DNA of 64,000 bases from Casimicrobium huifangae (lineage in GTDB: Bacteria > Pseudomonadota > Gammaproteobacteria > Burkholderiales > Casimicrobiaceae): positions 3,022,436-3,086,435 of the forward strand of contig NZ_CP041352.1 in assembly GCF_009746125.1 (NCBI RefSeq). The letters are read 5' to 3'. Under the pieces are notes generated by a model that worked only from the letters and a program-made list of their open reading frames with translations, was not told where the DNA came from and searched no databases. Numbering within the stretch: the first letter of the stretch is position 1; every line of letters starts with the position of its first letter. Positions 10,704-61,550 of the stretch are shown one piece after another. The position numbers and the translations under genes are program-made.

Positions 10704-10734
10704 GGCAGCAGCAGGCAAAAGACGGTCGACAAGG

Positions 10735-10893
10735 GAAGCGCTGAATAAGTCCCCGCGAAGCTGCGCGCGGCGGATCGGGATGGATGGCGAGGCGCAAAAC
10801 GCAGTCGTAGCGGGGCTACGACGAGGCTTTGCAACGAAACCAGCCGCCCGAGTCCGTCGATGCGCGGCTCGCGAGGGACTTGTTTAGCGCTTC
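10735..10893. mobile_element. MITE-like element with about 27-bp terminal inverted repeats
   Basis: The left end GAAGCGCTGAATAAGTCCC and the complement of the right end, GAAGCGCTAAACAAGTCCC, match at 17 of 19 positions, and the match continues into CGCGA after one extra base. The 159-bp element carries an internal perfect hairpin (GTCGTAG / CTACGAC, 10804-10822) and no credible coding frame. I see no clear target-site duplication. It fills the divergent pmbA-darP intergenic region and must therefore contain or abut both promoters. No second copy is present in the window. Confidence 0.7.
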
Positions 10894-10931
10894 TCAAGCA
10901 TAGCCGAGTGGCCTTGCGGCAAAATCGTGGC

Positions 10932-12068: not shown

Positions 12069-12085
12069 ACGCCGCGCACCGGTAT

Positions 12086-12205
12086 CAGCTTTTCCGCGAA
12101 ACCCCCATTTCAACTGGGCTGTCAGCCACAATTACCCAAAACTCGACTTTTATCGATTTCGGTTATTTAGCCCACATCCAATGGGGGTCTGATCAAAAAG
12201 TTGCT
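12086..12205. repeat. Intergenic imperfect palindrome family, copy A
   Basis: 120-bp element that begins CAGCTTTT and ends AAAAAGTTGCT. Inner pairs are ACCCCCATT with AATGGGGGT (9 bp, perfect) and GGGCT with AGCCC; the centre reads AAAACTCGACTTTT. It lies between converging mog and a lipoprotein gene and reaches into the lipoprotein stop codon. The other copies are at 25239, 34259, 44459, 55193 and 61285, with a half copy at 38097. Confidence 0.9.
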
Positions 12206-20581: not shown

Positions 20582-20756
20582 GCCTTACCCCTGAATCGCC
20601 TCAATTACCGCAGAGGCCGGATGACGTTCAGCGCGCCCGGCCCGGCGCCATGCGGCACACCGCCGCCAGCGCTCGAATTTTGAACAGGCGCAAGTGTACG
20701 GGTTTGCGCGCCGCTACAATTCGCATCCGGACATGCAGATTGCATGCCCACCAACG

Positions 20757-20840
20757 CTAGGGGTGCTCGGCGGCGCAAGCCACCGGGCTGAGATGACACC
20801 CTGGAACTTGATCAAGGTAATACTTGCGCAGGGAAGCGTC
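20757..20840 (+). promoter_or_regulatory. TPP riboswitch (THI element)
   Basis: The TPP aptamer motifs appear in order: AGGGGTGC (P1/P2 side), GGCTGAGATGACACCCT (20786-20802, including the conserved CUGAGA pyrimidine-binding turn), then GAACTTGATCAAGGTAATAC (20804-20823) and GCGCAGGGAAGC. A possible promoter -10 TACAAT lies at 20715-20720. Thiamine pyrophosphate binding would shut down expression of the downstream receptor and transporter. The exact mode, hiding the ribosome site or terminating, is not resolved because no clear U-tract terminator follows. Confidence 0.95.
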
Positions 20841-20913
20841 GCAGATATCAGTCCGCACCGTTTCTGGTCGGGCCATTCGTGCACTTGACCCTGCCGTCGA
20901 TTCAGGACTTTCG

Positions 20914-25221: not shown

Positions 25222-25238
25222 CGGCGCGCACCAGGCAT

Positions 25239-25356
25239 CAGCTCGGTGCTGAGATGCCCATTCGATAAGGGCTCAGCCTGCGATTTGGCACAATGTCGAC
25301 TTTGCCATGAAATTTGCATTGAGCCCTCGTCCAATGGTCTTTTCAGAAGAAAGCTG
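25239..25356. repeat. Intergenic imperfect palindrome family, copy B
   Basis: 118 bp between two converging genes. Ends CAGCT and AAAGCTG; inner pairs CCATT with AATGG and a perfect seven-base GGGCTCA with TGAGCCC; centre GTCGACTTT, where the left side has drifted (CAATGTCGAC). Spacing of all landmarks matches the other copies. Confidence 0.88.
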
Positions 25357-25378
25357 ATGGAGCTGATGGTGAAGATCG

Positions 25379-26047
25379 CTATTTCGGCGCGCTGACTCCC
25401 GCCTTTGCTTTTGCCGGCTGCAACTCGGCGGGCGCAATCAAATCCCGCAAGGTGCCCAGCGCGAGCGCCACAAAGGCCACCGCGCACAGGCGATAGGTCA
25501 GTTTGGCCCACTGCTGGCCGGAGCGGGCGAACAGGCGGTCCACAATGGCCGCACAGACGAACGCCCAGACCACCGATGACACCATGAAGCCGGCGAAGAA
25601 GATGCCGTAATCGGTGGCTGAAGGTTCGTGTACGCCGACAGCGCCCATCGCGCTGCCGAGCGCGGCCCAGTAGGCAATGTTCTGCGGGTTGGTGACCGAG
25701 AGCAGCACGCCGGCCCGCGTCGCCGAGCGCTGCGTGACACCGGCATCGCCGGCCACCAAGAACTCCACGCTCGCAGCCCGCCACGCATCACGGGCAAGCC
25801 ACAGCAGATACAGCGTGCCCGCCACGCCAATCGGCCAGCGCAGCCAGTCGAGCTGCAGCAGGAGCCCGATGCCGACCAGTCCAAGCACCGCCCACAGCGC
25901 GTCACCGACCAGCGAGCCCAACTGCACCCCCAGTGCAGGTCGGTAGCCACCGCGCACGCCCTGACGCACCGTCTCGGCGAACACGGCACCAGGGGCGGCA
26001 TTGAAGATCAGACCCAGAAGAAAGGCGGAGATGAACAGCGTGGTCAT
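25379..26047 (-). CDS. LysE/RhtB-family amino acid exporter
   Basis: 222 residues with about six membrane segments. The N-terminal block GLIFNAAPGAVFAETVRQGVRGGYRPALGVQLGSLVGD is the hallmark of the LysE superfamily, and LLSVTNPQNIAYWAALGSAMG carries the conserved NPxN-like loop. Substrate is unknown: these carriers export lysine, threonine, homoserine or other metabolites. The C-terminal tail (QPAKAKAGVSAPK) is hydrophilic and unusual in length. No LysR partner is adjacent. Confidence 0.88.
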   Translation of the reverse strand: MTTLFISAFLLGLIFNAAPGAVFAETVRQGVRGGYRPALGVQLGSLVGDALWAVLGLVGIGLLLQLDWLRWPIGVAGTLYLLWLARDAWRAASVEFLVAGDAGVTQRSATRAGVLLSVTNPQNIAYWAALGSAMGAVGVHEPSATDYGIFFAGFMVSSVVWAFVCAAIVDRLFARSGQQWAKLTYRLCAVAFVALALGTLRDLIAPAELQPAKAKAGVSAPK

Positions 26048-26404
26048 GGCAATGGGTAATGGCTTGGCTGGTATTTGCGCAGGCGTAGACCGGCCGCCCT
26101 GGCCGGATCGTCACCGAACGCCGGCCGACCGGTGACCGTCGCCAACGCGGCAACGGCCTTGCGACCTGCCAAGTACCCGCAAGCGCCATGCCGGGGTATC
26201 CGCACCAATTTCGGGCGCAAATCCGTCGCAGTCGCACCGGTCCGATTTGTTGGTTGTACGCTCAACTATGGAAAATGATTTGCAGCATCAGCAAACAATG
26301 ACAAATGTCAATTTGCGATGCGCAAGCCGGTAATATTCGGCCCTGCATCAGGACATGAGACATCTTACATCGGATCATTCTTATGTCTATATCGTTGTAA
26401 CTGT
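26048..26404. other. Intergenic region with no recognisable gene
   Basis: About 357 bases between the LysE start and the first gene of the GTPase module. The first half is GC-rich without coding frames I trust; the second half (from about 26240) is A+T-rich and is the likely promoter region of the downstream operon. I see no hairpin terminator and no copy of the 120-bp repeat. Confidence 0.55.
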
Positions 26405-27271
26405 ATGTCATCTACGCGCAAAACGCGCGATCCTGTTGGCGGCGAACCACGCTGCCCACCGCAAGACCAAAGCTGGAAATCCTGGCTGAAGAACGCCGAC
26501 ATCATGAAAAAGTGCTTGAAAGTTTCGACCGAAAACCTGCCTTCCACGCTACGGAAGCCGTTCGAGACGATCCTTGGTGTCGCGCAAACGCGGAGCATGG
26601 CCGACTGGAGTTTTGCGCCAGCGGCAAGTGCCGACCTCGTCTGCTGCGTGCCGGGCATGCTGGATGCGGACACCGCACAGGCGCGCAACCAGGTCCGCCT
26701 GTGGATTGCTTCGCAAAGTGACGCCGGGCCGCATCTGCGCGACGGTGACGTAGTTCTCGCCCCCGACAACATTCGCCTGGTCACCCTGCTGTCGGCGCTG
26801 GATATGGCTGCGCTGCGCCTGCTCGACTCGTCCATTTACCCACACCTCAACGATTCGCCAAGCCAGCAGGAGCAGCGCGCCGAACGCGCTGACAACCGCG
26901 GCAGTGACAACCGGCGCACCCGCTACTCGCTCAGTTACTGGCCGGTACTTTCCGGCAACTTCCGCTCACGCGCGTACCAGAACGCAGCCGCGATGCTGAG
27001 CAAGCGCGCGATGACAGTCACCGAGCTTGCCCGCGCCAGCGGCCTGAGCGAGCAATCTGCATCGGCGCTGGTGGATGAACTGGCGCGTGTGCGCGCACTC
27101 AAGGCGATATCGCGAACCGACGCCCGCGGGCGCAAGCCGGCAAGCCGGCTGGGCAGCCTGTTCGCCGGGCGCAGCGCTGACGGCAGCCGCAGTGGCGCTG
27201 CCAGTGCCGCCGCAAGTGGCAGCGGCTTCCTTGGCCGTGTGCGCGCCTGGTTGTCGGGTGCACACGCCTGA
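26405..27271 (+). CDS. Winged-helix protein of a GTPase/Roadblock module
   Basis: 288 residues when started at the ATG at 26405; starts at 26318 and 26504 are also possible, and none has a strong ribosome-binding site. The A+T-rich sequence before 26405 reads poorly as protein. An N-terminal alpha/beta domain (DWSFAPAASADLVCCVPGML, LRDGDVVLAPDNIRLVTLLSALD) is followed by a winged-helix segment (MLSKRAMTVTELARASGLSEQSASALVDELARVRAL) and a serine/alanine-rich linker. It is the first gene of a four-gene operon with a Ras-like GTPase and two Roadblock proteins. I do not recognise the N-terminal domain. Confidence 0.75.
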   Translation: MSSTRKTRDPVGGEPRCPPQDQSWKSWLKNADIMKKCLKVSTENLPSTLRKPFETILGVAQTRSMADWSFAPAASADLVCCVPGMLDADTAQARNQVRLWIASQSDAGPHLRDGDVVLAPDNIRLVTLLSALDMAALRLLDSSIYPHLNDSPSQQEQRAERADNRGSDNRRTRYSLSYWPVLSGNFRSRAYQNAAAMLSKRAMTVTELARASGLSEQSASALVDELARVRALKAISRTDARGRKPASRLGSLFAGRSADGSRSGAASAAASGSGFLGRVRAWLSGAHA

Positions 27272-27312
27272 TTGGCGACCAATCGTCATCCCGAAAACCG
27301 GAAGCAATAGCC

Positions 27313-27876
27313 TTGTCCAGCGCACCCCGCATTGTCCTGTTCGGTCCGATGGGGATCGGCAAATCGACCGCCATCCGCACGCTTTGCGGTGAGCTGGCGG
27401 TCGATTGCGATGTGCCCAATCTTGACCTTGCCACATCAGCCAAAGAGACCACCACGGTCGGCGCTGACTACGGCGTCATTCACCTCGCCGAAGGGCAGGA
27501 GTTGCACATCTACGGCAGCCCCGGTCAGGAGCGCTTTGCCTTCATGCGAGAGTGGCTGATGTCGCTGGCGGTCGGTGCGGTCATCCTGGTCGATCTGGCT
27601 GATCACGGCGCGCTCGACAGCGCGCTGACGCTGATCCGCGAGGCCGAAGCCTCAGCAACCAGTCCGGTGGTGGCCGTAGTCATCGCGCGACCGGCCAGCG
27701 AGGAGCAGATTCAGGCGTTCGCGCAGACGCTGTCGACCCACGCTGATGCACCAGTGCCGGTGCTCAGCGCCGATGTTCGCGACCGCGAGCAGATGCTCGA
27801 TGTGCTCTCGCTGCTGTTCTCGATGATCAGCGTCGAGCTGGAAGAACCGTCGGAGGATGCATCCCATGTCGACTAA
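27313..27876 (+). CDS. Ras-like small GTPase (COG2229 / conservon CvnD type)
   Basis: 187 residues from a TTG start at 27313. G1 is GPMGIGKST, close to the N-terminus; the threonine pair in KETTTVGADYG is the switch I region; G3 is YGSPGQERFAFMREWL, the form seen in the single-domain GTPases of actinobacterial conservons. The expected NKxD base-recognition motif after the hydrophobic strand is not visible (VVAVVIARPASE), so nucleotide specificity may be altered. It overlaps the following Roadblock gene by eleven bases. It probably acts as a polarity or signalling switch with the two Roadblock proteins. Confidence 0.85.
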   Translation: MSSAPRIVLFGPMGIGKSTAIRTLCGELAVDCDVPNLDLATSAKETTTVGADYGVIHLAEGQELHIYGSPGQERFAFMREWLMSLAVGAVILVDLADHGALDSALTLIREAEASATSPVVAVVIARPASEEQIQAFAQTLSTHADAPVPVLSADVRDREQMLDVLSLLFSMISVELEEPSEDASHVD

Positions 27877-28309
27877 CAATCACGCAGGCAGCGCGGCCGC
27901 CCTGGCCATGACCATGAAAATTCCACCCGACAAGATCGCCCGTCTGACTGCCGAGTTCCACCGCTTTGCTGGCGAGCAACCCGATCTGCGCGCGTCGATG
28001 CTGGCAACCATCGACGGCTTCGAGATCGCATCGCACTGCCCGGATCAGAGCTTCCGTTCGCAGAACCTCGCCGCGATGGCGAGCTCGCTGGCTGCCATCT
28101 CGCGGGCAATCACCAAGGAAGTGGCATTTGATGGCTGTGACCGCATGCTGCTCGAATCGACCAGCGGCCGCATCGTCTTCCAGCCTGTGCAGGCGCTGGG
28201 CATCCCCTGTACGGTGTGTGTCGCCGTGTCCGCCGCGTCGCTGCTTGGTCGCACATTGTGGGCGCTGGATGCCTTTGTGGCGCACCTGAAACAACTGCCC
28301 GATAACTGA
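27866..28309 (+). CDS. Roadblock/LC7-domain protein 1
   Basis: 147 residues from the ATG at 27866, inside the end of the GTPase gene. The predicted fold is the Roadblock/LC7 sandwich: a helix, the strand pair ASMLATIDGFEIASHC, a long helix (FRSQNLAAMASSLAAISRAITKEVAF) and further strands (MLLESTSGRIVFQPVQALGIPCTVCVAVSAAS). Bacterial Roadblock proteins such as MglB act as activators or scaffolds for Ras-like GTPases. Tight coupling with the GTPase gene supports a complex. Confidence 0.85.
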   Translation: MSTNNHAGSAAALAMTMKIPPDKIARLTAEFHRFAGEQPDLRASMLATIDGFEIASHCPDQSFRSQNLAAMASSLAAISRAITKEVAFDGCDRMLLESTSGRIVFQPVQALGIPCTVCVAVSAASLLGRTLWALDAFVAHLKQLPDN

Positions 28310-28409
28310 CCGGCCCCAAAACACGCCGAACGCGCGCAAATGCAAACTCGCGTCGCGGTTGGTCATCAGAATCAAGAGTTTGCAGTATCGCTGCTTCACC
28401 GGAAAAAAC

Positions 28410-28769
28410 ATGGCAAACATCAACGAATCACTTGCAAGCCTTATGGACATTGACGGCGCCGCCTGCGCAGCCATCGTCGATAGCAACAGCGGCATGCTGC
28501 TGGGCAGTCAGGGCTCGGGCATGGACATCATGCTGGCGGCCGCCGGCAACACCGAAGTCGTCCGCGCCAAGATGCGCACGATGCAATCACTCAAACTTGA
28601 CGACACGATCGAGGACATGCTGATCACCCTCGGCAAGCAGTTTCACATCATCCGGCCGATCAAGGCGGCGCCGGGCCTCTTCATCTATCTGGTACTCGAC
28701 AAGAGCAAGTCGAACCTCGCACTGGCGCGCCACAAGGCCGCCGGCGTAGAAGCCGAACTGAAAATCTGA
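28410..28769 (+). CDS. Roadblock/LC7-domain protein 2
   Basis: 119 residues from the ATG at 28410. It is shorter than protein 1 and diverged from it: MDIDGAACAAIVDSNSGMLLGSQGSG, a central helix ending in VRAKMRTMQSL, then IEDMLITLGKQFHIIRPIKAAPGLFIYLVLDKSKSNLALARHKA, the usual last strands and helix of the fold. Two different Roadblock partners beside one GTPase would allow a heterodimeric or layered control unit. It converges on an MFS gene with only 16 bases between the stops. Confidence 0.85.
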   Translation: MANINESLASLMDIDGAACAAIVDSNSGMLLGSQGSGMDIMLAAAGNTEVVRAKMRTMQSLKLDDTIEDMLITLGKQFHIIRPIKAAPGLFIYLVLDKSKSNLALARHKAAGVEAELKI

Positions 28770-34258: not shown

Positions 34259-34379
34259 AGCAGCTCAGCGGCAAAATCCTCGATTTAATTGGGCTCAGCG
34301 CTGCTTTTTGGCAAAAGTCGATATTTTGCGTTTCTGCCTTTGAGGCCCTTTACAACGGTACTTTGACAGAAAAGCTGCT
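34259..34379. repeat. Intergenic imperfect palindrome family, copy C
   Basis: 121 bp between converging genes. Outer arms AGCAGCT and AGCTGCT are perfectly complementary; the inner pair is GGGCTCA with TGAGGCCC (one bulged base); the centre is AAAAGTCGATATTTT. The A+T-rich composition differs from the flanking genes. Confidence 0.88.
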
Positions 34380-34429
34380 GAGTCAACGGCGATATGCGCG
34401 CCCGTGTATCAGCAGCTTGCCGTCAACGG

Positions 34430-37400
34430 TCAGGGCACCGTCGGTGTGATCGTCACCAGATAGTTCATGATCGCCGCGGCGTCACGCGTGGCGGCCGGGC
34501 CGACGGCGCCGGCAACCACGGCCGCCTGCGGCAGGCCGAGCATGAAGCGAAGGATCATCAGGCCATCGGTCAGTGCGTCGACGCTGCCGTTGTTGTCGAT
34601 GTCGAGCAGCGGACGGATGCTGTCGAGATGGGTCAACATGGCGGCGGCCGTGGTGCGTGTGGCGCCGCCCCCGAGCGCATTGGCGATCATGGCATTGCCG
34701 CGGTAACCAAGCAGGTAGCGCAGCATGATCACGGCGTCGGTTGCGCCAGCATAGCCGCCGTTGAGATCGACGTCGAGCGCACGCGGAATGCCGCAGTACG
34801 CCGACAACGCGGTCAAAGTGATGTTGTCGATACGCGCGCCCGCGAGACCCGTGGCGGAAACCGAACTGTCGGTGGCGACACGCCACTTCAGCCGTACCAT
34901 CTGGCCCGCCGCCGCAGCCGGCAGATTGATCACCGAGTTGATATACGTCGGCGCCGCCGTGGTGCCACCCGACAAACCGCTCCACGCCGAGCGGCTGGCG
35001 ATCGCGCTGCCGAAGCTGGCCGAAATCGTGCCCGTATAGCCCCCGGTCAGAAACGCGTTGCCGCCACTGGTGATGTCAGTGAACGCACCGCCATTGACGC
35101 TGTATTCGAGCACCATGCCATCGAAGTAGTTGCTGACGCCGCTTTCCAGGTTGTAGAGGTTGCGGAACGCCAGCTGCGCGCCACCCGCCGGCACCGCGAT
35201 AGCGGGCGAGATGAGCTCAGTGTTGCCCACGGCCGCAGCACTCGGTGCGACGGCGACGTTCGGGGTGCTGTTGACCGGTCCGGTCGCCACTGTCGTCCAC
35301 GCGGTCAGCCCGCCACTGATGGCGGTTGTCCAGCCACCCGGCAGCGCGGGTGCGGTCACGCCGTCGTAGGCTTCGATGAAATACGGCGCCGGGGTGCTGC
35401 CAAGGCGCATCGTGTAGCTCGCCGTGCCGAGATTGGTCGCGCCGTCCTGCAAGCTCAGGTTGAGCGTGATGTTGTCGCCACAGGTGCCAGCAGCCTTGAA
35501 GGTGAACGGCCGCGATACCGCCGCACCGCCGGCGATGACGCTGCCGTAGGTGGCGGCCGCGCTCGGATTGGTAACCCCGGCGTTGGCCTGCAACGTGGCC
35601 ACCAGATTGGTTGTGTTGGCGGTGCCGACGTTGACCAGGGGCAAGCTGACTGTCAGGCGCTCGCCGGGGTCTGCCGCGCTGTTCAATAGCACGGCGTCTT
35701 CCGCAGTGATCACTACCGGCAGCGCGGAGTTCACGATCGGCACCGGAGTGAGGCAGCCAGAGAAGGTTGCGACGCCACCGTTGGTCACCACCAGGCTGCC
35801 CGACGTCAGACTGTTGTAGCCGGCGAGGCGTGCCGTCGCGGTGTACGTTCCCGGCGACACTGCGGCGCTGTAGGTTCCCGCAGCCCCGGTGACGCGCAAA
35901 AAACCGCCGGTGATGGAGACGGTGACGCCGCTCACAGGTGCCGAGGTAGAGCAATTGGTGAGGGTACCGGAAATGGTGCCGCGCGGCGACGGCGTACAGG
36001 TCCCCGGCGCGAACTTGGCAATGCGGGTTCGCCATGCGGCCGACGCCGCACTCGCCTGGTACTCCTGCGTGAACCAGAAGGTGCAGTCGTCCACCGGGTC
36101 GAGCGACATCTGGCTGTAGTCGCCCCAGCGCGATGAAGCGGAAGTCTGCGCCCCCGAGCCAGCAATGATGCTCTGCTCGCCGCTGACCAGGCCGGTACCG
36201 GCGGCGTCGGTGCCAAGCCGCGCGGCATAGCGGATCGACGGCGAAACCGAACTGCTGGATACGCTGTAGCCCAGCGCGATGTCGCCCTGATGGTTCATGG
36301 CAACACTACCCATCCAGCGGTGGGCAGTGTCGGCAGCGCCGCCATCGAATGTCTGCGCCTCGCGGACGCTGAAGGCACCAGTCGGCGTGCTGCGGCGCAA
36401 ATCGTAGAAGCGAACCGCCGCGCGATACGCCGGGTAGGTTGCAGCATTGACCGTGTGGGTCATCACCAGCGACTCGCTGGTGCCGAGATTGCGATAGCCC
36501 AGACGGAACATCAGGCGATCTTCGAGAGCGTCAAGGCCCACTGTAGTGGACGGCTGCGGCACCACGCTCCGGGTGGTGGCGGAGCCTGGCCGCGGGTCAA
36601 ACGCCGGCACCGTCAGCGGGCTGCCAGTCCGTTCGGTGAACGTGGAGTTGGCGGGCGTCGCGAAGTCAACCTTGAAATCAAAAATGCGCAGTTGATCGGC
36701 AGGGTCGCCAAACTCGACCGCCTGGAAGTAGGCGAACGGCGCTGGCGCCCCGGCTGGCGGCAGCGCCAATCCATCAAGACTGCCCGGCAAGATACCGCCA
36801 ATGCCGTAGGTGCCGTTGACACCACCCGGCGGGAACAGCACTGCCGTGTCAAAGTAGACAAAACTTGCCGTCGGATCGCCGGCCAGCATCTTGGCACGGT
36901 CAAACGCAAACACGCCAGACTGCTGAAACGCCGTACCGGCCTGGTTGAACTGGTTGTCGGTCATGTAGTAGCCATCGGGCCACAGGCCGAACTTCGGATA
37001 GTCGTTGAACTTGTTGTTCGGCATCTGGAAGTCGTACAGGTAGTACGCGCCAGTCGGGTCGGGCGTCTTCGAGATGGCAATGAGCTGGTGATTGTTGGGG
37101 TCCGCCAGCGTGCAGAACTGGCTGATCAGCCAGCGATCGGCGAGCTGGTCGTACAGCACGACCGGATCGCCGTCGTTCGCCGTACGGCAGGCGCCTGACA
37201 GCGTGCCGAACAGTGTTGAAAACGGAATGGTCGCCGTCAAGGCTGCACCTGCGCGGTCCCAGACGCGAAACGCCGAGTTGACCGCCTGCACGTAATGGTT
37301 GGGGCCGACTGCACCCGTGGTGTCCGGCGGCAGGAAGCCCTGGCCGATGGCCGTGGTGTCAGTGAACACGATGCCGTCGAACTGCACAGTGGCCGGATTG

Positions 37401-37783
37401 GGCAGGTTGCGGATCGGCGCCCGGGTCTGCTCCGACCACAGCGCGCCGTCTGGCTTGCCGGCCATCGACTTGTCGGCCACCCGCATCGGACGACGGTTGC
37501 TCGAGTTGATCGTTTCGTAAAAAGGGTCCGACGCCAGGCGCTTGCGCAACACGCCGGTCGGCACGTCGGTCATTTCCGCAACCGGCACTGACTCGCCAAA
37601 GTGGAGCACCTGTCCGGTGTAGAGCCCCCGCGAGGCCGCCAGCGCCATCTGCTCGGCGGTGGGCTTGGTCGGATTGATGAACGGTGCGTTGGTCTGCGCC
37701 TGTGTACCGGCCAGCGTCACCACGGCAAGCGCGGCGGCTGCAACGCGCCGTAGACCCCGGTGGACAAGGATTGCTTTTGTCAT
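34430..37783 (-). CDS. Large secreted protein with beta-propeller-like, carboxypeptidase-regulatory-like and dockerin-like parts
   Basis: 1117 residues from the ATG at 37783, which gives a classical signal peptide (VHRGLRRVAAAALAVVTLAGTQAQ) cleaved after AQA or TQAQ. The first 500 residues contain FLPPDTTGAVGPNHYVQAVNS and Asp/Gly-rich strands that look like a beta-propeller. Around the middle, GTISGTLTNCSTSAPVSGVTVSITGG begins a carboxypeptidase-regulatory-like beta sandwich. The last 120 residues have two calcium-loop, dockerin-like repeats (DVDLNGGYAGATDAVIMLRYLLG and DIDNNGSVDALTDGLMILRFMLG). No catalytic motif is evident. Probably extracellular; function unknown. Confidence 0.8.
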   Translation of the reverse strand: MTKAILVHRGLRRVAAAALAVVTLAGTQAQTNAPFINPTKPTAEQMALAASRGLYTGQVLHFGESVPVAEMTDVPTGVLRKRLASDPFYETINSSNRRPMRVADKSMAGKPDGALWSEQTRAPIRNLPNPATVQFDGIVFTDTTAIGQGFLPPDTTGAVGPNHYVQAVNSAFRVWDRAGAALTATIPFSTLFGTLSGACRTANDGDPVVLYDQLADRWLISQFCTLADPNNHQLIAISKTPDPTGAYYLYDFQMPNNKFNDYPKFGLWPDGYYMTDNQFNQAGTAFQQSGVFAFDRAKMLAGDPTASFVYFDTAVLFPPGGVNGTYGIGGILPGSLDGLALPPAGAPAPFAYFQAVEFGDPADQLRIFDFKVDFATPANSTFTERTGSPLTVPAFDPRPGSATTRSVVPQPSTTVGLDALEDRLMFRLGYRNLGTSESLVMTHTVNAATYPAYRAAVRFYDLRRSTPTGAFSVREAQTFDGGAADTAHRWMGSVAMNHQGDIALGYSVSSSSVSPSIRYAARLGTDAAGTGLVSGEQSIIAGSGAQTSASSRWGDYSQMSLDPVDDCTFWFTQEYQASAASAAWRTRIAKFAPGTCTPSPRGTISGTLTNCSTSAPVSGVTVSITGGFLRVTGAAGTYSAAVSPGTYTATARLAGYNSLTSGSLVVTNGGVATFSGCLTPVPIVNSALPVVITAEDAVLLNSAADPGERLTVSLPLVNVGTANTTNLVATLQANAGVTNPSAAATYGSVIAGGAAVSRPFTFKAAGTCGDNITLNLSLQDGATNLGTASYTMRLGSTPAPYFIEAYDGVTAPALPGGWTTAISGGLTAWTTVATGPVNSTPNVAVAPSAAAVGNTELISPAIAVPAGGAQLAFRNLYNLESGVSNYFDGMVLEYSVNGGAFTDITSGGNAFLTGGYTGTISASFGSAIASRSAWSGLSGGTTAAPTYINSVINLPAAAAGQMVRLKWRVATDSSVSATGLAGARIDNITLTALSAYCGIPRALDVDLNGGYAGATDAVIMLRYLLGYRGNAMIANALGGGATRTTAAAMLTHLDSIRPLLDIDNNGSVDALTDGLMILRFMLGLPQAAVVAGAVGPAATRDAAAIMNYLVTITPTVP

Positions 37784-38399
37784 TGTGTGTGCCCATGCGT
37801 TGCCGCGAGGCTGGTTCTTACCCCATGGCAATTGAACTCGGCAAAAAATTGAACCCCGATACTGATCGCGAATGTTGGAGTGGCATCGCGGCAGGTCATT
37901 GCTGCTGCCGTTCGCGACATTCGCGCCGTGTCTTTGCTTCTTTGTGTCGCTCTGATTCTTGCAGACATCCACTGATGGGAGTAAGGTTTTCTTGCGTCGG
38001 CGGAGTGCGGTGCGCACGCCTCACGGCCCGCAGCAGATGACAGCGGGCGGTGAGGCGCATGTACGCGGGCCGCCCGTCGAGTCGCACGAATGCAACAGGT
38101 CGACTTTCGCTGAAAATATGCTCCAAGCCCATATCCGACGCGCTTTCACGCAAAAAGCTGTCCACGCATTGCAGGCAGGTGTTCTGTGCCCGGTTAGCGA
38201 AAAAATCGCGCGCAACCGTAAAAACATCTGATAGAACACCCGATGTTCGCGCAACAACCGGCCAAAAGCCCGTTGAACAGCGAACCGACTCGTTGCAAAC
38301 CGCGCAACACAGGGGCACAGAAAAGTGATGTGCCGGTTGGCAGTGCAGTCGTGACCGTTAGTTCCAAAAACAACTTTTACGCTGCAGGTCACCATCACC
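37784..38399. other. Long divergent intergenic region holding a half copy of the palindrome family
   Basis: About 616 bases between the secreted-protein start and the TonB-like gene. Apart from the half repeat at 38097-38160 I see no gene with a believable start or codon pattern. The last 250 bases are A-rich in short runs and must carry the TonB-like promoter. An untranslated leader or small RNA cannot be excluded. Confidence 0.55.
38097..38160. repeat. Half copy (copy G) of the palindrome family
   Basis: Only the right arm is recognisable: GGTCGACTTT at the centre, CCAAGCCC about 16 bases on, CTTTCACG near the end, and the terminus AAAAAGCTG. The spacing equals that of the full copies. The left arm is replaced by unrelated GC-rich sequence, so this is a truncated or decayed copy. 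Confidence 0.75.
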
Positions 38400-44442: not shown

Positions 44443-44458
44443 CGCAATCTGGCGGATA

Positions 44459-44576
44459 CATCTTTTTCATGAAAGCACCATTCAATAAGGGCTATGAGCA
44501 TGTTTTAAGCAAAAGTCGACTTTATTGACTTTTATGGTTGAAGCCCAAATAAAAAGGGCATTTTGGATGAAAGCTG
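44459..44576. repeat. Intergenic imperfect palindrome family, copy D
   Basis: 118 bp between two co-directional genes, 17 bases after the LysR stop. The left terminus has drifted to CATCTTTTTC; the right end is GAAAGCTG. GGGCT pairs with AGCCC and the centre is a perfect AAAGTCGACTTT. ATTCAATAAGGGCT before the centre is shared almost exactly with copies B and E. Confidence 0.9.
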
Positions 44577-44660
44577 CTTTGTCCATCACAACGATTTGAT
44601 GCGGGTTTGCGCAGCAGAATTGCCGTTGCTGCGACGCAGAAATCGCATAAAATTTGGGCA

Positions 44661-52264: not shown

Positions 52265-55120
52265 TCAGCCGAGGTTCTTGCGCTGCGCGGTGATCTTTTC
52301 CAGCGTGGCGCTGAAACCGGCAAGACGTTCCTTCTCCTGAGCGACCACCGCCGCCGGTGCCTTGTCAGCAAAGGCCGGGTTGCCGAGCTTGGCGGTGGCC
52401 TTGGTGACTTCGGCCGTCAGGCGGGCAATCTCCTTGTCGAGGCGGGCGCGTTCGGCCACCGGATCAACCTTGATTTCGAGCATCAACCGGAAGTCACCAA
52501 CCACCTGCACAGGGGCGTCGTTAGCTGGCAGCGCGTCAACAATGCGCACTTCCGAAAGCTTCGCCAGCGCGGCGAGATAAGGCGCGAATTCGCGCAGCGT
52601 TACCGCATCTCCCGTCGCGATTAGAGGTACGCGTTCTGCCGGCGAGATCTTCATCGTGCTGCGCAGCGTGCGGCACGAGGTGACCAATTCCTTGAGCACC
52701 GCCATCTTTGCATTCGCCTCGGCGCTGATGCGTTCGGCGCCGTACTTCGGGAACGGCTGGGTGCTGATTGACGCGCCAGACTTGCCCGCCAGCGGTGCCA
52801 CCTTTTGCCACAGCTCCTCGCTGATGAAAGGCATGATCGGGTGCGCCAGACGCAGTGTGGCTTCCAGCTCGCGTACCAGCACGCTGCGGGTGCCGCGTGC
52901 GGCGGCGGCATTGCCTGCCTTGTCGGCATCAGTGATTTGCACCTTGGCGCATTCCACATACCAGTCGCAGTATTCGTCCCACACGAACTCGTAGAGCGCC
53001 TTGGCGGCGAAATCAAAGCGGTAGCTGTCGAGGCCTTCGGCGATGTCGCGCTTGGCGATCTGCAGGCGGCCGAGCAGCCAGCGGTCGACGAACGACAGGC
53101 TCTGCTCGCCGCCGTCAATGCCGCAATCTTTGCCTTCCACATTCATCAGCACAAAGCGGGTGGCGTTCCACAGTTTGTTGCAGAAGTTGCGGTAGCCCTC
53201 GCAGCGGCTCAGGTCGAAGTTAAGCGTCATCGACATGTTGCTCAGCGACGCGAAAGTGAAGCGCACCGCGTCGGCGCCGTAAGCCGGGATGCCGGTCGGG
53301 AAGTTCTTGCGGATGTACTTCTCCGCCTTCTCCTTGTGCGACGCGAGCATCAGGCCAGTGGTGGACTTGGCCACCAGTGGCTCCAGCTCAATGCCATCAA
53401 GCAGGTCGATCGGGTCAAGCACATTTCCCTTCGATTTGCTCATCTTGTTGCCTTCGGCGTCGCGCACCATCGCATTGATGTAGACGTCGCGGAAGGGCAC
53501 TTTGTCAGTAAAGTGCAGCGTCATCATCACCATGCGGGCGACCCAGAAGAAGATGATGTCGTTGCCGGTGACGAGCACGTTGCTCGGCAAATACGCGCTG
53601 TCCTTTTCAAAGCGCGCCTGGTCTGGCCAGCCGAGCGTGGTGTGACACACCAGCGCGGAGGAGAACCAGGTGTCGAGCACGTCCGGGTCACGCGTGAGTG
53701 GTTTGCCGCCACTCTGCTTCAGTGCATCGGTCTCGCTGCGTGCGACATAAACCTTGCCATCGGCGTCGTACCACGCCGGAATCTGATGCCCCCACCAGAG
53801 CTGGCGCGAGATGCACCAGTCCTGGATGTTCTCCAGCCAGTGGTTGTAGGTCTGCGCCCAGTGTTCGGGGAAGAAGCGGATGTCACCCTTCTTCACCGCT
53901 TCCAGCGCGCGGCCGGCAAGGCCCTTCTCGTGCTTCGCGGTCGGCTTGCTGGTGGCGACAAACCACTGATCGGTGAGCATCGGTTCGACGATCTGGCCGG
54001 TGCGCTCGCACACCGGCACCATGTGCTTGTGCGGCACGGCCTTTTCGAGGAAGCCCTGCGCTTCGAGGTCTCTCAGCACCGCCTTGCGCGCATCGAAACG
54101 GTCCATGCCCTGATAGGCCTTGGGGCCGTTCTCGTTGACGTGGGCGTCGAGCGTGAAGATGGTGATCAGCGGCAGGTTGTGCCGCAGCGAGCAGGCGTAG
54201 TCGTTGAAGTCGTGGGCACCGGTGATCTTCACGCAGCCGGAGCCGAATTCGCGATCAACGAAATCATCCGCGATGATCGGAATGCTGCGATTCATCAGCG
54301 GGATGTCGACCATCTTGCCGATCAGATGCTTGTAACGCTCGTCCTCGGGATGCACCGCGAGAGCGCCGTCGGCCATCATCGTTTCCGGCCGCGTGGTGGC
54401 GATGTGCATGCCCCGGACGCCGTCGATCGGGCCGTGCGTGAACGGGTAGAGGATGTGCCACATGTGGCCGTCGCGCTCGACCGATTCCACTTCGAGATCG
54501 CTCACGGCGGACTGCAGCACCGGGTCCCAGTTCACCAGGCGCTTTCCGCGGTAGATGAGCCCTTCCTCGAACAGTTTGACGAACGTCTCCACCACGCCTT
54601 TCGACATGTGGCTGTCCATCGTGAAGTAGCCCTGGTTGGCGCCGCTGGCATCAGCGAAGCTCCAGTTGGCCGACGCGCCGAGGCGACGCATCTGCCGAGT
54701 GATGGTGGAGCCGGATTGCTCCTTCCACTGCCACACGCGTTTGGTAAATTCATCGCGGCCGAGGTCGTGGCGCGAGCTGCCTTGCGCCTGCAACTGCCGC
54801 TCCACGACGATCTGCGTGGCGATGCCGGCGTGATCGGTGCCAACGACCCAGTTGGTGTTGTCGCCCTTCATCCGGTGGTAGCGGATCATGGTGTCCATCA
54901 GCGTCTGCTGGAAGGCGTGGCCCATGTGCAGCGTGCCAGTCACGTTCGGTGGCGGCAACTGGATGGTGTAGCCCGGCTTCGACGCGTCGCCACTGGGGAC
55001 GAAATAGCCCGCGCTCTCCCAGACCGGATACCACCTGGATTCAATGGCTTTCGGTTCGAATGACTTGGAGAGGGAATCGAGCGCGCTTTGGGCGGCCGGG
55101 CTGTTGGCAGTGGCGGACAT
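52265..55120 (-). CDS. valS: Valyl-tRNA synthetase
   Basis: 951 residues, the full length for the enzyme. The class I signatures are HMGH (residues 65-68 in [16 protein letters not shown]) and KMSKS (559-563). The editing domain (about 200-350) contains [17 protein letters not shown]. The last 70 residues form the valine-type coiled-coil arm ([19 protein letters not shown]). The gene precedes holC/pepA region genes in the order common to beta- and gammaproteobacteria. Repeat copy E lies upstream of its start. Confidence 0.97.
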
Positions 55121-55192
55121 GGCGACAAAAACGCCGCGACGGGCGCGGCAGCATTGAATTAGCGGAAGCGAAAATTGTAACCGCGAGAGTTA

Positions 55193-55310
55193 CAGCTTTT
55201 CCGTAAAAGCTTTATCCAATAAGGGCGAGATCGCCAATTTTTTCAAAAGTCGATATTTGCCGTTTTACCGCTCGCAGCCCAATTTTAATAAGGATTTCAA
55301 CAAAAAGCTG
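55193..55310. repeat. Intergenic imperfect palindrome family, copy E
   Basis: 118 bp between valS and a hypothetical gene, both on the minus strand. Ends CAGCTTTT and AAAAGCTG are perfectly complementary over eight bases; GGGC pairs with GCCC; ATCC pairs with GGAT; the centre reads AAAAGTCGATATTT. Its own reverse complement aligns to the forward strand of copy F, so the element is a full-length palindrome. Confidence 0.92.
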
Positions 55311-55387
55311 CACGCCTCGATGTGCGGTGCGTTGACCGAGCCTGATTGGCAGCGGCGGTTTCAACGCCCTGCCACCCAAGACGCGAC

Positions 55388-56032
55388 TTAACGCCGCTTC
55401 GACAACTGCTCGCGCAAACGCGCGATCTCGCCATCCACGGCGCGGGAAACGACGTCGCGCACCTGCGTTGACGTGTCTTCGGCGACCTGATCAGCGATGT
55501 CGCGGGCAATGTCGGCCAGCGCCACCGTCAACGACTCACGCAAATGCGTTTTCAGCGAACCGGCAGCATGTAGCTCAAGTTGCTGCATGACCTGGCTGTA
55601 GACGCTGTGGCGCATTTCCTCCAGCCGGCTGATCAGCAATGCGTTGAATTGCTCGCGGGCGCTGGCCCCGCTGGCCGTGTTCGGCGCCGCGGCAATGGGC
55701 GTGTGTGGCGTTGTATCGCGCAACGCCGGCGGCGGGCCAACGCGTGGCGCAGCATTCGCGCTGGCGGCACTGCCCGGCGCCGCAGACGACGCGGGCACCG
55801 ATGGAGCGGGCGGCGCCGGTTTACGCACAGTGGGCACAGCAGCTGTTGCCGGCGCCGGCTGCGTGCGGGCAATCGCCGGCGGTGCGGCCAGCGTGGGACG
55901 CGGTGCCTCGGTATCGCCAATCTCGATCTCTTCGACAATCAGATCGGTCAGCACCGGCAATTCTTCCGGTACGCGCTGACGCATCATGCGGTCAGCTTGC
56001 GCAAGCAGATCTTTGGCGGCGGGCGTGCTCAT
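55388..56032 (-). CDS. Conserved-type hypothetical protein between valS and holC
   Basis: 214 residues. The N-terminal 40 residues (AAKDLLAQADRMMRQRVPEELPVLTDLIVEEIEIGD) could be a short interaction segment. Residues about 45-115 are an Ala/Pro-rich linker, and the C-terminal 90 residues form an amphipathic coiled region (LLISRLEEMRHSVYSQVMQQLELHAAGSLKTHL ... TQVRDVVSRAVDGEIARLREQL). No catalytic motif and no signal peptide. A protein of similar build often sits at this place in betaproteobacterial genomes, but its role is not known to me. Confidence 0.72.
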   Translation of the reverse strand: MSTPAAKDLLAQADRMMRQRVPEELPVLTDLIVEEIEIGDTEAPRPTLAAPPAIARTQPAPATAAVPTVRKPAPPAPSVPASSAAPGSAASANAAPRVGPPPALRDTTPHTPIAAAPNTASGASAREQFNALLISRLEEMRHSVYSQVMQQLELHAAGSLKTHLRESLTVALADIARDIADQVAEDTSTQVRDVVSRAVDGEIARLREQLSKRR

Positions 56033-61215: not shown

Positions 61216-61284
61216 GCGCACGAGTCGCGACCGCCATGCTCGACGGCAATGAGCAGACTGATCGACAGTTGACTGCCAACGATA

Positions 61285-61400
61285 CAGCTTTTCAACGAAA
61301 TTACCAATTTAATTGGGCTGACAGCATAAATATGGCAAAGTCGACTTTCATAATATTTGCGCTTTAAGCCATGTAAAATGGTCGTTTCATTAGAAAGCTG
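61285..61400. repeat. Intergenic imperfect palindrome family, copy F
   Basis: 116 bp between the divergent rplU promoter and ispB. Ends CAGCTTT and AAAGCTG are perfect complements over seven bases; inner ACCA pairs with TGGT and GGCT with AGCC; the centre is a perfect AAAGTCGACTTT palindrome. It is the best reference for the family together with copy E. Confidence 0.92.
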
Positions 61401-61550
61401 ATAGCTAGCTACCGGCCAGGCAAAGCAGCAAGACACACTTGCCGACTGCAACGGCGAAATGGCGGCGGCCGCTAGCAGCGTCGCAAACGCATGCCCGATA
61501 TCGGAGCACGCCGTCAGTCACTACTCACCCCGCTGGCTACAATTTGCTGT

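Follow-up and report, generated by a model that had tools for sequence, protein, structure and literature searches.

Upstream of valS in Casimicrobium huifangae lies an imperfect palindrome of about 118 bp that recurs several times in the 64-kb stretch of DNA analysed here (the window), and the question raised by this locus is what kind of entity such a repeat family represents. An earlier note, made from the letters of the window, had proposed either a non-autonomous mobile element or a structural DNA/RNA unit. Its description of an abundant intergenic family, present in all gene orientations and lacking an Rfam match, stands, whereas the readings as a mobile element or an RNA unit are not supported. 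The even spacing, the selection confined to sequence blocks, the restriction to one genus and the turnover of the motif between species are absent from that note.

Abundance, placement and spacing of the copies

A profile built from element sequences alone recovered 6/6 window copies at the places claimed for them, each on both strands and with E values from 1e-16 to 1e-22. The ends, the GGGCT/AGCCC blocks and the core lie in register, as had been claimed, with conservation ending beyond about ±60 bp. The settings are as varied as described, copies A to C being convergent, D and E co-directional, and F divergent:

Copy A, 12085..12204, unstranded: convergent gap downstream of mog (molybdopterin adenylyltransferase)
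Copy B, 25238..25357, unstranded: convergent gap between a VTT-domain gene and a LysE-type gene
Copy C, 34260..34378, unstranded: convergent gap between an MFS transporter gene and a large peptidase-like gene
Half copy, 38093..38161, unstranded: model positions 2-70 of 122, 30.5 bits, ending near the dyad centre
Copy D, 44458..44577, unstranded: co-directional gap between a LysR-family gene and a DEAD-box helicase gene
Copy E (main feature), 55192..55311, unstranded: full 118-120 bp dyad element, profile match
Copy F, 61284..61401, unstranded: divergent gap between rplU-rpmA (L21/L27) and a polyprenyl synthetase gene

Copy E is flanked by valS (52265-55120, minus strand) on one side and by a gene at 55388-56032 (minus strand) on the other, and adjoins the likely valS promoter, with a TACAAT about 13 bp past its GCTG end. 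An element upstream of valS was found across much of the genus: the position of copy E is also occupied in genomes G011, G013, G015, G001, G004 and G005, by letter variants of the element in G012 and G014 and, as judged by eye, in G010 and G006.

The core AAAGTCGACTTT occurs seven times in the window with up to two mismatches, against 1.0 expected, and 32 times exactly in the 4.466-Mb genome, against one occurrence of the reversed control. The flanks of the core matches first read revealed full copies in 15/15 cases, and in 1.33 Mb of C. huifangae sequence 20/20 exact cores and 31/32 one-mismatch cores lay inside copies. An 864-kb sample contained 93 copies, the reversed control yielding only one match at E up to 10, and the best 150 of 919 candidates in a genome-wide search were scored and were all strong. 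Contiguous C. huifangae stretches of 334 kb, with 31 copies, and of 400 kb, with 30 (61 in 734 kb), extrapolate to about 370 copies, copy number and spacing being drawn from parts of three genomes; on this extrapolation the hundreds predicted genome-wide are borne out. An estimate of about 200 copies per genome, obtained from stretches picked for known matches, was superseded by this figure.

In four unbiased segments, all copies (87/87) were intergenic according to gene calls from a simple hexamer caller written for the analysis, in agreement with the intergenic location claimed before. An element was present in 21% of convergent gaps, 11% of divergent gaps, 12% of tandem gaps outside operons and 1.5% of gaps within operons. 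Copies lay at a median of 20-30 bp from a gene 3' end, and had a GC content of 0.46 against 0.62. Spacing was far more even than under random placement, for which a coefficient of variation (CV) of about 0.93 is expected; the observed values were 0.468 (C. huifangae, 334 kb), 0.467 (C. huifangae, 400-800 kb), 0.367 (G011:C3) and 0.496 (G015:C4). Against random choice among real intergenic gaps, p was ≤0.0036 in every segment, the window's own region entering this comparison as a 213-kb sub-segment with a CV of 0.507. None of the 66 spacings in three segments fell below a quarter of the mean, where 14.6 would be expected at random. Even spacing is, by itself, no proof of an architectural role. 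At the level of the whole chromosome, the GC skew of C. huifangae flips sign between about 1.8 and 2.5 Mb, so that the replication origin is probably near contig position 0, and the second half of the genome seems to have known copies at a somewhat higher density (69 vs 47).

Anatomy of the element and type of conservation

The element is organised around the core AAAGTC|GACTTT, beyond which pooling of both arms gives conserved blocks GGGCT at ±25 to 29, CCCATT at ±36 to 41, GAAA at ±44 to 47 and, outermost, CAGCTTTT at ±52 to 59, whereas positions ±12 to 15 are occupied by A or T only, interchangeably. Besides the main dyad at 0, each arm has local dyads of its own, centred at ±33.5 and ±48.5, which in copy E are placed as follows:

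Central dyad, 55246..55257, unstranded: AAAGTCGATATT, for the consensus AAAGTCGACTTT
Left local dyad, centre -33.5, 55210..55226, unstranded: consensus gCCCATT..AtTGGGCt, from the profile
Right local dyad, centre +33.5, 55277..55293, unstranded: position from the profile
Left outer dyad, centre -48.5, 55195..55211, unstranded: consensus aGCTTTTtg.tGAAAgc, from the profile
Right outer dyad, centre +48.5, 55292..55308, unstranded: position from the profile

Seven species variants share these dyads (0, ±33.5, ±48.5) despite differences in their letters. Examples of local dyads are CCCATT..AtTGGGC in C. huifangae and CGAC..GGTCG in G012, and the variant of G010 and G014 has GCC.Ta..tGG together with a TTTTC-type core replacing GTCGAC. 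Across species the A/T profile remains in phase, with r of 0.63-0.91 and a best shifted match of ≤0.38. A 10.5-bp helical period was not seen, since the best cosine period was 9.25-9.5 bp, accounting for about a quarter of the variance, and power at 10.5 bp was 0.01-0.05; given blocks without a clean 10.5-bp period, wrapping of the DNA is only a suggestion. The motif holds about 92 bits of information, several times the roughly 13.6 bits that would mark about 370 sites, and more than one ordinary reader needs. This excess suggests several readers per site, in keeping with the five local dyads, and suggests that the element first spread by copying and then stayed under selection for a long time.

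The conservation is of the double-stranded DNA type and not of the RNA type. That the whole element is a palindrome is true of the consensus but not of the single copy, which is as similar to its own reverse complement (0.544) as to that of another copy (0.543), and the self-symmetry excess of copies was not significant (p=0.33). Arms formed 24.9 pairs within a copy and 24.1 between copies (p=0.20), and no Watson-Crick covariation was detected at any mirror or within-arm position pair of 85 full copies, which thus lack the compensatory changes that the earlier note had named as a test. RNAalifold returned no consensus structure, neither a consensus hairpin nor a T-run was found, and the Rfam search that had also been suggested gave no covariance-model match for the element. 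With neither compensatory changes nor a consensus RNA structure, the proposed RNA unit was not borne out. Three of the six window copies folded with z below -3.8, the other copies behaving like shuffles or no better. A within-copy pairing excess was found in the set from other genomes and vanished within single species; it was likely due to the mixing of species of differing consensus. Elsewhere in the window, a TPP riboswitch lies at 20749-20851; its position ahead of a thiamin-related or transport gene is as expected.

Site retention, motif turnover and mobility

At intact synteny, 6/6 C. huifangae sites were retained in G011, a genome with orthologous proteins about 90% identical to those of C. 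huifangae, and 6/8 G011 sites were retained in C. huifangae. Two sites missing in C. huifangae and present in G015 were most simply lost in the C. huifangae lineage, with no obvious replacement. Regarding the other window copies, A has an orthologue at G011:C3:83949 and B has orthologues in G011 and G015; the G011 site corresponding to C carries a weak copy, and that of D a divergent one. Copy F is retained in G011, G013 and G004, and missing from G015, G001 and G012. Same-site copies in related species are no more alike than different-site copies. Among the few orthologous pairs (nine, seven and six), agreement at orthologous vs unrelated sites was 0.318 vs 0.273 for spacers and 0.756 vs 0.726 for blocks between C. 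huifangae and G011, and 0.298 vs 0.274 for spacers and 0.699 vs 0.718 for blocks between C. huifangae and G015. Spacers at chance level and retained blocks indicate purifying selection on each site, and this block-only persistence is not the neutral decay of a dead repeat.

Several gene-content differences were observed next to copies. The large peptidase-like gene (34260-38161 region), flanked by copy C and the half copy, is absent there in G011, whose matching site has one weak element, and G011 lacks the five-gene block beside copy B (25379-28769), having the element with the flanking genes immediately on either side. Elements as gene-gain hot spots were considered and rejected, synteny breaks being not clearly commoner than at other non-operonic gaps. 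The valS gene of G012 is 94% identical to that of C. huifangae, nearby G012 genes being less alike; judging from these sequences, transfer is a possible explanation, and the element upstream of it (G012:C28) bears the motif of G012 itself despite the likeness of valS.

Only a single betaproteobacterial genus was found to carry the repeat family. Most of its 17 genomes were strongly enriched in exact cores and exact ends, and 31 genomes from six further genera of the same taxonomic family stayed at background level, as did 142 other genomes sampled from the class; G016, the deepest genus genome, had no clear copy. In a collection scan, the C. huifangae type of element was confined to MAGs of Burkholderiales/Betaproteobacteria, two of them apparently from the genus itself; at the sensitivity of the searches, plasmid, phage and viral collections yielded no copy. 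In G012 the motif has changed at nearly all copies seen, the C. huifangae model recognising 1/12.

Mobility was equally not borne out, as there are no close copies and the same sites are occupied in other species; the option of a structural DNA unit, which had been offered beside it, is supported. Pairwise identity of the 85 full copies had a median of 0.56 and a maximum of 0.695, the latter within the range of independent-column simulations, and a standard deviation of 0.042 against 0.032-0.038 in those simulations. Inverted ends are present, and neither a target duplication nor a precise empty site, the orthologous evidence suggested earlier for a mobile element, was recognised in the gaps compared. 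Another repeat of the window served as control:

Control MITE-like repeat, 10734-10894, about 160 bp: inverted ends GGAAGCGCTGAATAAGTCC/GGGACTTGTTTAGCGCTTC, likely 4-bp CAAG duplication

This repeat and two more copies have a median identity of 0.85, the orthologous G011 gap is empty, and a similar insertion is found elsewhere in G011. As these signals were detected, recent mobility of the element would have been seen by the same method, and recent transposition was rejected for the lack of close copies and of a clear insertion footprint. Most genomes have Y1_Tnp genes whether or not they carry the element, and G008 has the element and no Y1 match.

Proposed function and competing explanations

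We consider it slightly more likely than not that proteins dock on the element as double-stranded DNA, in a C2-symmetric assembly of several dimers that acts at the scale of the chromosome, on its domains or topology. The central dyad would hold one dimer and each arm two, at ±33.5 and ±48.5, and the A/T tracts, whose positions are fixed (±12 to 15 above all), would lend themselves to bending. Purifying selection keeps every site individually; the sites, about every 8-13 kb in non-coding gaps, would provide organisation at the scale of supercoil domains, with domain boundary, condensation or topology control as possible roles, and site letters and the putative cognate protein would co-evolve from species to species. 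The protein, the occupancy by dimers, the bending and the chromosome role are what we infer; an even, genome-wide and gene-avoiding placement near supercoil-domain size makes a chromosome-organising role the most likely one. Several points count against the docking reading. A 10.5-bp helical period is not seen, and two sites were lost in the C. huifangae lineage with no obvious replacement. A site of 92 bits is hard to generate de novo, and the element must therefore have been spread by copying at some time. Even spacing could also stem from another process, such as transposition immunity.

That process belongs to an explanation that we regard as unlikely, in which the element would be ancient, non-autonomous and MITE-like, its blocks transposase-binding sites and its spacing a relic of target (transposition) immunity. 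Hundreds of dispersed, intergenic, AT-rich copies (GC 0.46 vs 0.62) with inverted ends and an information content that implies past copying are consistent with it, and immunity would yield spacing without close neighbours; however, no pair exceeds 0.695 identity, blocks are kept while spacers are saturated at orthologous sites, plasmid, phage and viral copies were not found, and no convincing precise insertion or duplication was seen, whereas the control MITE has 0.85 identity, an empty site and a likely duplication. Target immunity could explain the spacing but not the block-only conservation of orthologues, unless the host later adopted the sites. It is quite unlikely that the copies are strong wrapping sites for DNA gyrase (or another topoisomerase), like BIME-2 or the Mu SGS, at one per supercoil domain. 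The length and two-fold symmetry fit the 130-bp gyrase motif (PMC6379681), the spacing resembles that of the 400-500 supercoil domains of the E. coli chromosome (PMC3820752), and there is a mild preference for convergent gaps (21% vs 11-12%), but the motif is a degenerate 10.75-bp GC periodicity, while the element has a power of 0.01-0.05 at 10.5 bp and is dominated by base-specific blocks that change between species. Gyrase as the reader is possible, with a published motif mismatched in period and specificity (PMC6379681).

Sites for a global transcription regulator, or bidirectional transcription terminators, are decidedly improbable: the short distance to gene 3' ends (median 20-30 bp) and the likely valS promoter beside copy E speak for them, but a third of the copies occupy convergent gaps, where there is no promoter, the consensus has neither a hairpin nor a T-run, and neither function predicts even spacing. 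Even spacing, genus-specific letters and hundreds of copies would suit self-recognition sequences for natural DNA uptake, which we nevertheless consider very improbable for a 118-bp dyad that is intergenic in 87/87 cases, known uptake sequences being short, non-palindromic and often in genes (PMC1939737). The least probable explanation is an RNA or single-strand hairpin repeat of the REP/REPIN/ERIC type; despite the palindromic consensus and the three window copies with z below -3.8, compensatory changes are lacking between and within arms, RNAalifold gives no structure, the other window copies fold like shuffles or worse, and Y1 transposase genes do not clearly track the element. This reading is already largely refuted by the arm-swap test.

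With respect to known systems, ERIC/YPAL-type repeats are near-identical hairpin-forming copies. The element is like them in length and overall palindromic layout, and is set apart from their descriptions by an identity of 56% and the lack of hairpin selection. The matS/MatP, parS/ParB and SlmA sites are dispersed palindromic protein sites under selection that act at chromosome scale, and are 13-20 bp long and regional. Likewise, the element consists of selected, dispersed palindromic double-stranded DNA sites, but these are about 118 bp long with five dyads, chromosome-wide and evenly spaced. REPINs comprise two invariant 16-mers with compensatory hairpin changes and random extragenic placement (PMC3116915). 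As in REPIN/REP/BIME and RAYT systems, there are hundreds of intergenic copies of inverted symmetry per genome whose type varies by species; in contrast to REPIN/REP-RAYT, the copies lack compensation, close relatives and a clear Y1 link, and are spaced evenly. The E. coli gyrase motif is a 130-bp, two-fold symmetric sequence with 10.75-bp GC periodicity, which, together with the Mu strong gyrase site, resembles the element in size (about 120-130 bp), symmetry and arms alternating AT and GC (PMC6379681); the element differs in lacking that period and in its strong base-specific blocks, the letters of which turn over between species. Uptake sequences of Haemophilus and Neisseria (USS/DUS) have also been reported to be evenly spaced, and are short, non-palindromic and often within genes (PMC1939737). 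The element shares their even spacing and lineage specificity, but its exact core 12-mer lay only inside full elements (20/20), and copies were intergenic in 87/87 cases.

The element is real and unusual. No described class of repeat or site known to us unites such a length with an anatomy of five dyads, selection at each site, even spacing and a motif that turns over from species to species. If a known protein binds it, the element would be a new variant of the sites of that protein, and if its function differs, a selected, evenly spaced 118-bp intergenic element would still be outside the classes of bacterial repeats that we know of. It would also offer a rare natural case of hundreds of long, putative binding sites changing letters together between related species, useful for the study of protein-DNA co-evolution. 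Bacterial chromosomes are thought to be split into supercoil domains of roughly 10 kb, with boundaries mostly seen as stochastic or transcription-driven. A genus-specific architecture system, in which about 370 five-dyad 118-bp sites, placed every 8-13 kb and read by a co-evolving putative protein, would mark supercoil-scale domains by sequence, is a plausible but still tentative view. If true, a selected element at about supercoil-domain spacing would be the first sign of sequence-laid boundaries or anchors, and would open the question to direct testing.
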